NCBI GenBank assembly: GCA_020723105.1 | Contig: DYJL01000024.1 | Span: forward strand, 1-46,291 | Direction of reading: 5' to 3' | Length of the DNA: 46,291 bases | DNA from: Nitrospira japonica | GTDB taxonomy: Bacteria > Nitrospirota > Thermodesulfovibrionia > UBA6902 | Part shown: piece after piece, positions 10,208 to 15,802 of the stretch | Layout of the letters: each line of letters opens with the position of its first letter | Position numbering within the stretch: the first letter of the stretch is position 1 | The notes under the pieces: generated by a model | What the model saw: only the letters and a program-made list of their open reading frames with translations | Told to the model about the DNA's origin: nothing | Database searches by the model: none | Translations under genes and position numbers: made by a program

Positions 10208-13200
10208 ATGGAACAAGCCCCGTTAATGAAGGAAGATCATATTTCACAGATACCTGCACTGCAGCTTCTGCAGAATCTTGGATATACCTATCTCACCCCC
10301 GATGAGGCGCTTGCCCTTCGCGGCGGCAAAACACGGAATGTGATTCTGGATGGGATTCTCGAAGCCCAGCTTCGCAGGATGAACGTTGTTCGCTATAAAG
10401 GAGAGACATATCCATTCACAGAGGGCAATATTTTCTCCGCCATTCAGTCATTGAAGGATATTATCTACGACGGACTCGTCCGTACAAATGAAAAGGTATA
10501 CGATCTACTTTGCCTTGGCAGGAGCCTTCAGCAATCTATTGAAGGAGACATTAAGAGCTTCTCCTTACAGTACATTGACTGGGAGCATCTGGATAATAAT
10601 GTCTATCATGTCACTGAGGAATTCAACGTTGAACGCACAGGCAGCAAGAATGAATATCGGCCGGACATTGTGCTTTTTGTAAATGGGATCCCGCTGGCGA
10701 TAATTGAATGCAAGAGAGCTGATCTCGGTCCGGGCAAGGACCCTATTGTTCAGGCAATCTCACAGCACATTCGAAATCAAAAGGACGATGGGATACCTTA
10801 CCTCTTTCTATATTCACAGCTCTTATTGGCAGTCTCAAAGAATGGGGCAAAATATGCTACGACAGGCACAGCTATGGATTTCTGGGCCGTCTGGCGCGAA
10901 GATAAAGATGTAAGCAAAGAGATTTTTTCTCTCATAAACAAGCCGCTTTCAGCTTATCAAAAAGACAAACTGTTTCAGAACAGGTTCAAATATGTCCGTG
11001 CAAGCTTTGATTTGATTGAGCAACAAGGAGGCAGGGAGATTACCGAACAGGATCAGGCTATATATTCACTCTGCCGGACAGACCGCCTTTTGGAATTAAC
11101 CTACCGATACATACTCTATGACGCAGGGGAGAAGAAGATAGCCCGTTACCAGCAGTATTTTTGTGTGAAAAGCATATTGGATAGAATAAGAACATCTGAT
11201 CATGAAGGAAGACGTCTTGGCGGTGTGGTGTGGCATACACAGGGAAGCGGCAAGTCGCTTACTATGGTGATGCTTGCAAAGGCAATCGCCCTTGATCCGG
11301 GGATTGAGAACCACAAGATTGTCCTTGTCACTGACCGCATTGACCTTGATGATCAAATTTATAAGACATTCCATCACTGCGGAAAAGATATTGAGCAGGC
11401 AAAGACCGGAAAGAATTTAATAGAACTGATCGAGGGGCACAAGGAGCGCATTATTACGACCGTTATTGATAAGTTTGACGCAGCCATCGGCGCTAAAGAT
11501 GTCTGTAACCCCAATCCGAATATTTTTGTCCTCGTTGACGAAGGTCACCGGGGACAATACGGACCACGCCATGCCAAGATGAGAAAGACCTTGCCAAAAG
11601 CCTGTTATATAGCATTTACCGGCACGCCAATTAAGAAGAAAGATAAAAACACTATGGCGCAGTTTGGCGGGTTAATACAGCCGTCATACACAATCAATCA
11701 GGCGGTAACGGACAAGGCTGTAGTTCCTTTGCTTTATGAAGGGCGTCATGTTGAACAGAAGGTAGATTCTCAATCCATTGACAGTTGGTTCGAGAAGATC
11801 ACTGAGAAACTAACCAGAGAACAAGTTGCTGATCTGAAGAAAAAATTTGCCACTACCGACCAATTGAACAAGGCTGAACAGAAAGTCATGCGTATAGCAT
11901 GGGACATCAGCGAACATTTCAGAGACAACTGGCAGGGAACTCCATTCAAGGGCCAACTGGTTACCCAGGACAAAGCAACAGCGCTGCTCTATAAAAAATA
12001 TCTCGATGAGTTTGCAATGGTCACTTCGGAAGTCCTTATTTCAGGCCCCGATGAACGCGAAGGCGAAGAAGATATTTACAAGGAAAACAAAGAAGAGGTT
12101 ATACGTTTTTGGAAAGTGATGATGTCAAAGTATGGCAGCGAAAAAGAATACAATAAGCAGATCATTAACGCTTTTAAATATGGCGAAACGCCGGAGATCA
12201 TTATTGTCGTTGATAAATTGATTACAGGCTTTGACGCTCCGCGTAATACTGTTCTTTATCTTACGCGTATGCTGAAGGATCATACCCTGCTTCAGGCGAT
12301 TGCCCGTGTGAACCGTCTCTACGAAGGTAAGGACTTTGGATACGTTATTGATTACAGAGGAGTGCTGGAAAACCTTGATCAGGCGCTGGACATTTACAGC
12401 GCCCTATCTGAATTTGATAAAGACGATCTTGCGAATACATTAACGGATGTATCAGTTCAAGTGCAAACACTTCCTCAGAAGCATTCTGTTTTATGGGATA
12501 TTTTTAAGGAGGTAAAAAATAAATATGACGAAGAGGCGTATGAACGACTTTTGGCTGATGACGCCTTGAGGGCGCGATTTTATGAACGGTTTTCCGAGTA
12601 TGGCCGGACGTTGGCAATTGCATTATCAACGGTCAGCTTTATAGAAGATATCCCCCAAAAGAAACTTGAACAGTATCAAAAAGATTTCCGCTTCTTCAAG
12701 GAGCTGAGACAGTCTGTAAGAAAACGGTATGCTGAGGTAGTGGATTTCTCCGAATATGAGCCCAAGATTAAGAAATTAATTGATACATATGTTGGAACCG
12801 GCGAGGTAGAACAGATCACCGGGTTGGTCAATATCTTTGATAAAGAAGAATTCAGTAAAGAAGTAGATAAATTGAAGAGCGAGTCAGCTAAAGCAGATAC
12901 GAGTGCTCATCGAACCATGAAAACAATAACAGAAAGGATGCAGGAAGACCCGGCTTTCTACAGAAAGTTCTCCGAACTCCTGCAGGAAACAATAAGGACA
13001 TTCCGTGAAGAACGCATTAAAGCATCTGAATATCTCAAGCGGGTGAAGGATATTATGAATTCCGTGGTTAATCGGACCGGCGATGATATTCCTGAAGGCC
13101 TCAGATACAAAGAAGCAGCGATGGCATATTATGGAGTTGTTCGTGAAACAATGGGAAAGTACGGAGATGATAGTTCTTTCACTGCAAAGGCTGCTGAAAA

Positions 13201-13405
13201 AACAAGCCTGATCATTGACGAAATTATTAGAAGATTGCGTATCGTAAACTGGAGCACGAATACCGATATTCAAAATCAAATCCGTAATAAGATCGAGGAC
13301 TTTCTTTTTGAAATAAAAAATGAATATAAGATCGACCTTACTTTTGAAGACATGGATTCGATTATGGAGCAGTGTCTGGATATAGCAAAAGTGAGAGTGC
13401 CTTGA
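10208..13405 (+). CDS. hsdR: type I restriction endonuclease subunit R
   Basis: This is the ATP-driven translocase and nuclease subunit of a type I restriction enzyme; the 1065-aa length is normal. The N-terminal PD-(D/E)xK nuclease is visible as RPDIVLFVNG then IECKRAD (about 150-170). The SF2 motor follows: Walker A TQGSGKS near 345, DEGHR (motif II), FTGTPI (motif III), and the C-terminal RecA domain with KLITGFDAP and LLQAIARVNR (motif VI). A helical C-terminal region for binding HsdM/HsdS completes it. No break is visible. With only an hsdS remnant nearby, activity depends on an S subunit from elsewhere. Confidence 0.95.
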   Translation: MEQAPLMKEDHISQIPALQLLQNLGYTYLTPDEALALRGGKTRNVILDGILEAQLRRMNVVRYKGETYPFTEGNIFSAIQSLKDIIYDGLVRTNEKVYDLLCLGRSLQQSIEGDIKSFSLQYIDWEHLDNNVYHVTEEFNVERTGSKNEYRPDIVLFVNGIPLAIIECKRADLGPGKDPIVQAISQHIRNQKDDGIPYLFLYSQLLLAVSKNGAKYATTGTAMDFWAVWREDKDVSKEIFSLINKPLSAYQKDKLFQNRFKYVRASFDLIEQQGGREITEQDQAIYSLCRTDRLLELTYRYILYDAGEKKIARYQQYFCVKSILDRIRTSDHEGRRLGGVVWHTQGSGKSLTMVMLAKAIALDPGIENHKIVLVTDRIDLDDQIYKTFHHCGKDIEQAKTGKNLIELIEGHKERIITTVIDKFDAAIGAKDVCNPNPNIFVLVDEGHRGQYGPRHAKMRKTLPKACYIAFTGTPIKKKDKNTMAQFGGLIQPSYTINQAVTDKAVVPLLYEGRHVEQKVDSQSIDSWFEKITEKLTREQVADLKKKFATTDQLNKAEQKVMRIAWDISEHFRDNWQGTPFKGQLVTQDKATALLYKKYLDEFAMVTSEVLISGPDEREGEEDIYKENKEEVIRFWKVMMSKYGSEKEYNKQIINAFKYGETPEIIIVVDKLITGFDAPRNTVLYLTRMLKDHTLLQAIARVNRLYEGKDFGYVIDYRGVLENLDQALDIYSALSEFDKDDLANTLTDVSVQVQTLPQKHSVLWDIFKEVKNKYDEEAYERLLADDALRARFYERFSEYGRTLAIALSTVSFIEDIPQKKLEQYQKDFRFFKELRQSVRKRYAEVVDFSEYEPKIKKLIDTYVGTGEVEQITGLVNIFDKEEFSKEVDKLKSESAKADTSAHRTMKTITERMQEDPAFYRKFSELLQETIRTFREERIKASEYLKRVKDIMNSVVNRTGDDIPEGLRYKEAAMAYYGVVRETMGKYGDDSSFTAKAAEKTSLIIDEIIRRLRIVNWSTNTDIQNQIRNKIEDFLFEIKNEYKIDLTFEDMDSIMEQCLDIAKVRVP

Positions 13406-14136
13406 TAATAGAAAAAATACAGACATCACATAAACAATACAGCATTCAATATGGACGGGAAAAGATTGCTTTCTCGTTGTCTTTTAACCATCGTAAGAGC
13501 CTTAAAATCAATGTTCATCCCGATAAAACAGTTACTGTAGTAGCGCCTAAGAATACATCGTTAGAAAATATTATTCTTCGTATAAAGAGACGCGCATTCT
13601 GGATAATTAAACAGAAGAACTATTTTGAACGATTTCAGCCATTACCGAGCAAGAGATTGTATGTCAGTGGAGAGAGCCATTACTATCTTGGGAAACAATA
13701 TCGTCTCAAAGTCCGTAAAGACTCAGGACAAGGCGTTAAACTTATTGGAAAGTATATTAATGTTTATACACCCAATGTTCATGATACCAACGAAGTCAAG
13801 AAACTCCTTCAAGGGTGGTATCGAAAACACGCCGAATCCATTTTTGCTCAACGGTTGCTCTTTTGTCATGAGGCCATAAAACGCATAAAAATTGGCCAAC
13901 CCCCAATCCGAATCCTGCATATGAAAAAAAGATGGGGAAGTTGCAGTAAATCAGGAGAGATTTTGTTAAACACAGAACTGGTCAAAGCCCCTTTGCACTG
14001 CATTGATTATGTAATTATTCATGAAATATGTCATCTAAAAATTAGACCACATAATAAGGAGTTCTACAAATTGCTGACAAGATGCTTACCTGACTGGATA
14101 CAAAGAAAAGAAAAACTTGAAAGAGTCGTAATATAA
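13372..14136 (+). CDS. YgjP-type (DUF45) metallopeptidase-like protein
   Basis: This is a predicted zinc-dependent hydrolase of the YgjP/WLM (DUF45) group. The zinc site HEICH (HExxH, near 217) and the third ligand region in RPHNKEFY are present, as is the family segment KKRWGSCS. An N-terminal beta-rich region carries KSLKINVHPDKTVTV. Genes of this family commonly sit at the 3' end of type I restriction operons; their substrate is unknown. The start is uncertain. A GTG at 13372 overlaps hsdR by 34 bp. A TTG at 13402 overlaps the hsdR stop as TTGA and would give a shorter N-terminus, closer to family members. Confidence 0.88.
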   Translation: MSGYSKSESALIIEKIQTSHKQYSIQYGREKIAFSLSFNHRKSLKINVHPDKTVTVVAPKNTSLENIILRIKRRAFWIIKQKNYFERFQPLPSKRLYVSGESHYYLGKQYRLKVRKDSGQGVKLIGKYINVYTPNVHDTNEVKKLLQGWYRKHAESIFAQRLLFCHEAIKRIKIGQPPIRILHMKKRWGSCSKSGEILLNTELVKAPLHCIDYVIIHEICHLKIRPHNKEFYKLLTRCLPDWIQRKEKLERVVI

Positions 14137-14170
14137 TAATAGAAACAACAATTAAAATTCGGAGGCAACC

Positions 14171-15802
14171 ATTCCATCTGTTTACGGCAACATCTCCGGC
14201 TTAAAGGGAAGCGAAATCAAGGCGCTTGAAAGAATTTACAGGAGGCGCATACCAAAGGACCGGCCGGTGACCGGCGAGCTTGCACGGTACATGGCAGAAT
14301 GGTCCGGCTCTATCGGCCGCCAGCTTGGGGTGCTTGCTGACAGGAGCGGGAACATCAGCCACGTAATTGTAGGAGACGCAAAGGGAATATTCATTCCGGA
14401 GCTTGCCGATTACCCGCTTGGCAGAAAAGTACTTCGCGGGTTGAGGCTCATCCATACACATCTTAGAAGCGAGGCCGTCAATCAGGATGATATCACGGAC
14501 CTTTCACTGTTGAGACTTGACGCCCTTATAGTGATAGGATTAAAAGACGGCCAGCCTAGTACTATTTCCCTGGCACATCTGTCCCCGTCTGATGCAGCGG
14601 CATCATATGAGATTGCAGGCCCTGTGTCCTTTCAAAAAATTGATACCTTCTTTGAGGACTTCGATATTATGATGTCTTCAGTCGAAGATAGCCTGCAATC
14701 ACGCAGGACCGGATTTGATATAAAAGACCAGCGTGAACGGGCCATTCTTGTCAGCGTCTCAACAGGTCCCCGGCATGCACAGGAAGAATCCATTGAAGAA
14801 CTCAAAGAACTTGCTCATTCGAGTGATGTTGTTGTTCTTGATACGATTCTTCAGAGGCCCAAGGAGATCAATCCAAAATTTCTGATGGGTCAGGGAAAAA
14901 TAAAAGACCTTGTTATTAACGCATTGAACAAGGGCGCCACAGTGCTAATCTTTGATCAGGACTTAAACCCTTCACAGATTAAGGCCATAGGCGATTTGAC
15001 GGAACTAAAGGTCATCGATCGCTCGCAGCTTATCCTTGACATATTTGCACGGCGTGCACACAGCAGAGATGGAAAGGTGCAGGTCGAGCTTGCGCAACTG
15101 CGTTACCGGCTGCCGCGACTTACCGGAAAAGGCACGGCCATGTCCCGATTGATGGGAGGAGTCGGCGGAAGGGGCCCCGGTGAGATGAAGCTTGAAGTTG
15201 ACAGAAGAAGGGTGAGAGAGCGAATAACCCTGCTTGAAAAACAGCTCGAATCCCTGAGCCGCGCAAGACAGCAAAGAAAGGCGCGCAGGGTACAACAGGA
15301 GCTGCCTATAATATCTATTATCGGTTATACGAACGCTGGCAAGTCAACCTTACTCAACAACCTCACAAGAAGCGCTACTTTTATTGAAGACAAGATGTTT
15401 GCCACTTTGGACACGGCAAGCAGAAGATTACGGTTTCCAAGAGAAAGGGATGTCATAATTACCGATACGGTCGGCTTCATACGGGACCTTCCCAAAGACC
15501 TGTTTGCTGCTTTTAAATCAACCCTTGAAGAGCTTGAGGATGCAGACCTTCTTCTTCACGTGGTTGACATATCAAATCCAAGATTTGAGCAGCATATGAA
15601 ATCTGTAGAGAAGATACTTGGTGATTTGGGACTTTCTCAAAAGCCGCAGCTTCTGGCCTTCAATAAGGAAGATCTTGTGGACAGGGAAGAGAGTGAGAAT
15701 ATATGCAAACGATTCGGAGGTGTTTCTATTTCAGCAAAACATCCTGAGACGTTTCATGAGCTGCTTGATGAAATAGAGGCAAGTCTCTGGCCAGCGGAAT
15801 AA
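14171..15802 (+). CDS. hflX: GTPase HflX, apparent AUU start codon
   Basis: HflX is a ribosome-associated GTPase that splits stalled or stressed ribosomes. The GTPase domain has G1 GYTNAGKST (near 384-392), G3 DTVGF and G4 NKED; the HflX N-terminal domain has PKFLMGQGKI and a glycine-rich GGVGGRGPGE linker. The first conventional start is a GTG at 14267 with no ribosome site at usable distance. Thirty-two codons of family-typical sequence precede it in frame (VYGNISGL, then LERIYRRRIPKDR). They reach back to ATT-CCA at 14171, 5 nt after a GGAGG. No ATG, GTG or TTG lies between the upstream in-frame stop (14153) and that ATT. I therefore place the start at ATT (543 aa); a base error in an ATG is the alternative. 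Confidence 0.9.
   Translation: MPSVYGNISGLKGSEIKALERIYRRRIPKDRPVTGELARYMAEWSGSIGRQLGVLADRSGNISHVIVGDAKGIFIPELADYPLGRKVLRGLRLIHTHLRSEAVNQDDITDLSLLRLDALIVIGLKDGQPSTISLAHLSPSDAAASYEIAGPVSFQKIDTFFEDFDIMMSSVEDSLQSRRTGFDIKDQRERAILVSVSTGPRHAQEESIEELKELAHSSDVVVLDTILQRPKEINPKFLMGQGKIKDLVINALNKGATVLIFDQDLNPSQIKAIGDLTELKVIDRSQLILDIFARRAHSRDGKVQVELAQLRYRLPRLTGKGTAMSRLMGGVGGRGPGEMKLEVDRRRVRERITLLEKQLESLSRARQQRKARRVQQELPIISIIGYTNAGKSTLLNNLTRSATFIEDKMFATLDTASRRLRFPRERDVIITDTVGFIRDLPKDLFAAFKSTLEELEDADLLLHVVDISNPRFEQHMKSVEKILGDLGLSQKPQLLAFNKEDLVDREESENICKRFGGVSISAKHPETFHELLDEIEASLWPAE

Follow-up and report, generated by a model that had tools for sequence, protein, structure and literature searches.

At which codon does translation of hflX begin in Nitrospira japonica, and what might that codon mean for the supply of the protein? 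The question is raised by a stretch of 46,291 nucleotides (contig DYJL01000024.1 of assembly GCA_020723105.1, positions 1 to 46,291, hereafter the window), in which a preliminary description had placed the start of hflX at an ATT codon, ahead of any conventional start, and had linked that choice to the level of translation initiation factor 3 (IF3). Few genes are known to start at AUU, AUC or AUA (hereafter AUH, as opposed to NTG for the conventional starts ATG, GTG and TTG). Here we report that an AUU start of hflX in the window is strongly supported by sequence comparison, that the AUH start is kept over three phyla, and that it is probably of the kind that IF3 discriminates against in infC.

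The hflX start in the window and in its relatives

The features on which the argument rests are the following.

14153..14155, forward strand: in-frame TAA that closes the hflX frame on its 5' side (sequence).
14161..14165, forward strand: Shine-Dalgarno site GGAGG, 5 nt before the start codon (sequence; strict-rule match in 173 of 177 AUH loci).
14171..14173, forward strand: AUU start codon of hflX (AUH here in 30/30 first relatives and 177/199 distinct loci).
14171..15802, forward strand: hflX, long form, 543 aa (TIGR03156 above cut-off, open frame, full-length matches in relatives).
14267..14269, forward strand: GTG, first conventional in-frame start, judged not to be a start (first strand, helix and invariant residues would be lost).
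14255..14659, forward strand: N-terminal domain of long HflX, possibly of JAMM/MPN-like fold (model and fold comparison, a lead only).
14738..15784, forward strand: HflX core with the GTPase domain (profile matches).

In a profile search TIGR03156 (GTP_HflX) matched residues 190-538 of the product at 439.9 bits against a cut-off of 216.75, with PF13167, PF16360 and PF01926 also matched in the core, and the relatives search returned matches over the full length of the gene. The five codons between the TAA and the ATT (AAT TCG GAG GCA ACC) contain no ATG, GTG or TTG, so that the arrangement given in the preliminary description, a GGAGG 5 nt before the ATT and no conventional start back to the stop at 14153, was confirmed in the sequence. 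The earliest conventional in-frame start in the open reading frame (ORF) list is GTG 14267. The frame 5' of it encodes IPSVYGNISGLKGSEIKALERIYRRRIPKDRP (32 residues), and its earlier designation as family-typical HflX sequence was correct: G6, L11 and Y23, all N-terminal to the GTG, do not vary among 35 aligned HflX N-termini. In a structure model, residues 1-30 supply a strand and a helix to a domain predicted with confidence (block pLDDT, the predicted local distance difference test score, 86-95), and a protein begun at GTG 14267 would lack part of this folded N-terminal domain.

The relatives search gave matches in 61/61 related genomes; six of these (G011, G020, G031, G034, G043 and G044) matched only other GTPases, and hflX was therefore seen in 55/61. 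Start codons were read at 30 loci and 20 regions from the 61 genomes, at 30 listed loci and 40 chosen regions out of 189 matching in the Nitrospirota, at 30 loci and 20 chosen regions out of 181 matching in the phylum of a Syntrophaceae genome (taken as Desulfobacterota), and at 20 loci out of 34 matching in the phylum of an Acidobacteria genome (Acidobacteriota). Removed before counting were L001 (it overlaps the hflX of the window), L013 and L107 (too close to a contig end), L112-L121 (lacking the N-terminal domain) and duplicates over the stretch from -30 to +60 around the start; 199 distinct loci of long hflX remained. The calling rule preferred a conventional start wherever it had a Shine-Dalgarno site. 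It called no start in L174 and made a false TTG call in L224, which is counted as AUH by eye where so stated; the AUH called at codon -7 of L181 and that at codon 4 of L040 are open to doubt.

The residue-1 codon was ATT, ATC or ATA in 30/30 first-read loci, own genome included, each behind a G-rich site. Within the genus, again with the own genome, ATT occurred five times and ATC five times, and ATG in none of the 9/9 same-genus relatives read. Over the three phyla, 177/199 loci had AUH at the hflX start (Nitrospirota 117/128; Desulfobacterota 42/51, or 43 with L224 corrected by eye; Acidobacteriota 18/20), with ATT in 65, ATC in 59 and ATA in 53. Sorted by the rule, AUH had a Shine-Dalgarno site in 173 loci and lacked a strict match in 4, NTG had one in 7 and lacked it in 14, and one locus had no call; the spacing from Shine-Dalgarno site to AUH was mostly 4-9 nt. 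On a FastTree phylogeny of about 245 residues from residue 6 onward, there were at least 65 changes of the start codon; about 51 of them were exchanges among ATT, ATC and ATA, and about 6 led from AUH to ATG. The proposal of an AUU start at 14171 is borne out in the relatives: ATG at this codon was looked for in the genus and not found, and it occurs only in scattered distant lineages. Judged from these sequences, the AUH start of hflX is neither a sequencing error nor a local oddity, and its unusual point is that a start codon, a site where AUG is normally favoured, was kept as AUH over three phyla.

Hexamers resembling a -10 box were concentrated 15-39 nt before the AUH, with 39 seen against 8.9 expected at 20-24 nt. 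Transcripts therefore often start just before the Shine-Dalgarno site and leaders are often short, which makes an upstream coding part unlikely. In the window a promoter scan of 13950-14300 gave no promoter suited to hflX, and the gene may consequently be read from the upstream gene. There was no Rfam match around the start, and no unusual RNA fold at 14130-14230 (z 0.75).

Two further loci were seen among the relatives. L350 (G016:C20:1600-2400) carries a truncated second copy of the hflX 5' end, matched over 38 aa and equipped with AGGAGG and ATT; the full hflX start follows about 4 kb downstream on the same contig. At G015:C45:6012-7383 hflX lies in separate pieces with one internal stop, possibly a frameshifted gene or an assembly fault.

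A proposed link between IF3 and the output of hflX

Start codons of infC (encoding IF3), obg and frr (ribosome recycling factor) were read in the same clade at 30 loci each, which were not from the same 30 genomes. infC started at ATA in 29 loci and ATC in one, behind a strong Shine-Dalgarno site (L237-L266; own genome G000:C57:240242), whereas obg (L267-L296) and frr each started at ATG in 29 loci and GTG in one, with AUH in 0/30. AUH starts are therefore not general in these genomes. IF3 itself (PF05198) was found in the own genome and in 56/61 genomes searched. The start codon of hflX, its Shine-Dalgarno site, their conservation and the parallel to infC can all be read directly in the DNA.

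As described in the passages cited here, IF3 discriminates against start codons without a 3' G and spares those with one (PMC4611024), keeps noncanonical starts repressed and controls its own gene, infC, by way of the AUU or AUC start there (PMC5472188), while E. coli HflX splits 70S ribosomes under stress and IF3, as an anti-association factor, then holds the 30S subunit apart (PMC9067457). At a probability of roughly 0.75, we propose that hflX carries an infC-type start discriminated against by IF3, with HflX output low and rising when IF3 is scarce relative to ribosomes; both the repression and its physiological sense we infer from the codon class and the literature. The AUU at 14171 would be decoded as fMet by initiator tRNA, on a short leader that carries a strong Shine-Dalgarno site. 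When IF3 is plentiful, most hflX initiation complexes would be rejected and HflX would stay low; when IF3 runs short relative to 30S subunits, IF3 and HflX would both be made faster. Since HflX splits 70S ribosomes and IF3 keeps 30S subunits apart, an AUH start on hflX would link ribosome splitting to how much of the anti-association factor is available. The link to IF3 was already part of the preliminary description; it is strengthened by the IF3-discriminated codon class and by infC (30/30) against obg and frr (0/30), and it keeps its conditional form.

The main rival holds that AUH only keeps HflX constantly low, as is reported for E. coli pcnB, an excess of the splitter being harmful, and that the IF3 level is no signal. 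In S. aureus reporters, non-canonical starts are described as giving about 10% of AUG expression (PMC13009471), and hflX of E. coli K-12 itself starts at TTG (L297 1173). The Shine-Dalgarno site, moreover, was lost in 12/20 conventional-start loci against 2/178 AUH loci (independent pairs 6 to 0, median p 0.03; start positions of L157 and L177 set by hand here and in the leaderless comparison below), which would also lower expression; among ATG forms alone the association falls to 4 to 0 (p 0.125). For constant low output, however, GUG, UUG or a weak Shine-Dalgarno site would suffice, yet a strong site is joined to AUH in 173/177 loci and GTG or TTG was called in just 8/199, and the start architecture of hflX is that of infC in the same genomes. 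We therefore regard constant low expression as unlikely, though a serious contender.

Several observations weigh against control by IF3. Constant low expression would yield an identical sequence pattern. The loci are not a random sample, consisting of best matches and a hand-picked spread over families, and NTG starts were called in 21/199 of them (the false call of L224 included). L194 and L235 pair an ATG with a clear Shine-Dalgarno site, and 2/2 long hflX genes of Fusobacterium have a Shine-Dalgarno site plus ATG. A special avoidance of G at the third base of the start codon was considered and dropped: the Gly6 codon ends in G in just 9/199 loci, with a share of changes to G about the same as that of the start codon (for comparison, the Gly10 codon ends in G in 40/196, and fourfold sites overall are 28% G). 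Avoidance of G alone thus proves little, because Gly6 behaves alike.

The conventional starts themselves may bear on the proposal. ATG forms occur in Nitrospirota family f7 (L046, L047, L051), in L157, L163, L177 and L184, and in some Desulfobacterota and Acidobacteriota loci. L051, L157, L163 and L195 lack a Shine-Dalgarno site and carry a -10-like box 6-7 nt ahead of the ATG, as would be expected of leaderless messages. In family f6 of the same class, three short hflX genes (L366-L368), examined after the leaderless idea had been formed, have TATAAT about 7 nt before the ATG. Leaderless messages are reported to be antagonized by IF3 (PMC4611024, PMC8138138, in the parts cited), and such ATG forms would for that reason fit selection for sensitivity to IF3. 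The argument is given little weight, because obg in the clade also looks leaderless: 27/30 loci lack a Shine-Dalgarno site, 5/30 have a close -10-like box, and a stretch like TGTATCGTTAAACC often stands directly before the ATG. From these sequences obg is probably leaderless, and the clade seems to have many such genes. An ancient IF3-HflX circuit in several phyla, in which both factors come from IF3-vetoed starts, a shortage of free IF3 raises both, and hflX with AUG is often leaderless, is put forward only tentatively, at a little under even odds.

A plasmid search matched only two records, both from Fusobacterium, and in the phylum of G244 the N-terminal domain was matched in 0/114 genomes. 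The short hflX of the phylum of an Aerophobetes genome (G243) was free of NTG before the first conserved residue in 9/11 loci uncut by a contig end, and 6/11 had AUH behind a Shine-Dalgarno-like site; L356, L357 and L363 of that phylum had neither NTG nor a Shine-Dalgarno-backed AUH before that residue. Short hflX from single genomes of other groups (L113, L115-L120) had NTG in 6/7.

Other readings of the start codon

Three readings deny that AUU 14171 is the start. The least improbable of them, and a very improbable one, is translation from GTG 14267, the conserved codons before it being untranslated or remnants. It has in its favour that GTG is a conventional start, which ORF finders using translation table 11 would pick. 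The residues before it, however, are conserved as protein and form part of the domain fold, the Shine-Dalgarno site is kept before the AUH, and the first NTG after residue 1 is widely scattered in relatives, from codon 7 to beyond 130; this start was rejected.

A start further upstream, with the AUH an internal conserved isoleucine codon, was rejected as well and has hardly any probability left. ATT, ATC and ATA are the three isoleucine codons, the very pattern expected of a conserved isoleucine, and in 54/179 loci the interval from the stop to residue 5 contains an NTG. The window, however, has its TAA five codons upstream with no NTG between, 141/177 AUH loci show no NTG ahead of the AUH as far back as the in-frame stop or the limit of the sequence fetched, and the Shine-Dalgarno spacing fits the AUH. 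In 12 AUH loci a stop codon lies immediately 5' of the AUH; there an internal isoleucine is ruled out, and at the other loci it becomes unlikely.

An assembly or base-call error for ATG, conceivable in a draft genome of 94 contigs, is refuted by the ATT or ATC of 9/9 other genus genomes and the AUH of 177/199 loci, and is just as improbable.

The N-terminal domain into which a start at GTG 14267 would cut had no Pfam match in the first 190 residues of long HflX (window protein, E 1), and a sequence search of the PDB with the domain gave two matches only (E 0.36 and 0.72), taken as chance. Its model resembles JAMM/MPN domains of the metalloprotease type over residues 29-163: the top VIA-align rows were JAMM/MPN chains with Z up to 7.9, and the best Foldseek E was 3.8e-3. 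The likeness is a lead only, because a Z below 8 can reflect a common arrangement. H95, T96, H97 and D107 are invariant in the 35 aligned sequences; the JAMM/MPN metal motif is, we assume, His-x-His plus Asp, and the His-to-Asp spacing of long HflX is off by one from it. Upstream of hflX, at 10208-14136, the ORF list contains an ORF resembling the HsdR subunit of type I restriction systems and one resembling a small metallopeptidase with HEICH.

hflX among known start-codon systems

If the AUU start is used as proposed, hflX would be a second gene, besides infC, that keeps AUH across phyla and acts on ribosomal subunits. The conservation of so rare and inefficient a start suggests that how much HflX is made depends on the initiation factor policing start codons, and would make it testable whether the IF3 level signals to genes other than infC. 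In many genomes, annotation that accepts only ATG, GTG and TTG has probably made HflX too short or wrongly extended it. The mechanism is already known; the AUH start on hflX and its breadth appear to be new, no report of an AUH start for hflX having been found in a partial look at start-codon passages of the literature, which is no proof of absence.

Conserved AUH starts with a strong Shine-Dalgarno site are, in the sources cited, a known kind, represented by infC and by ccpN and cvfC1 of S. aureus. Like infC of this clade, hflX has a conserved AUH with a strong Shine-Dalgarno site ahead of it, and both products act on ribosomal subunits; unlike infC, which here is nearly always AUA, it uses AUU, AUC and AUA about equally, and its regulation by IF3 is proposed. 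The AUU start of E. coli pcnB, with reported low expression, is a further likeness, but the pcnB case is described as a single one from E. coli, whereas AUH at hflX is kept over three phyla or more. With ccpN and cvfC1 (AUA or AUU with an extended Shine-Dalgarno site, in S. aureus and for ccpN also in B. subtilis) hflX shares a conserved non-canonical start for which a strong site compensates; the starts of those genes, which are unrelated to hflX, were established by ribosome profiling and reporters, according to the part of PMC13009471 cited. Streptomyces sigR likewise takes non-canonical starts beyond infC, but its codon is GTC and its repression by IF3 is described as demonstrated (PMC5472188), while for the AUH of hflX repression is proposed. 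Control of HflX genes that responds to translation is, finally, described for hflX/hflXr, with rli80 in Listeria (PMC6310831) and an upstream ORF candidate in Bacillales (PMC8632094); these work through a leader RNA, in the accounts cited by a leader peptide and attenuation, unlike the hflX start of the window, which carries neither an Rfam match nor an unusual fold.
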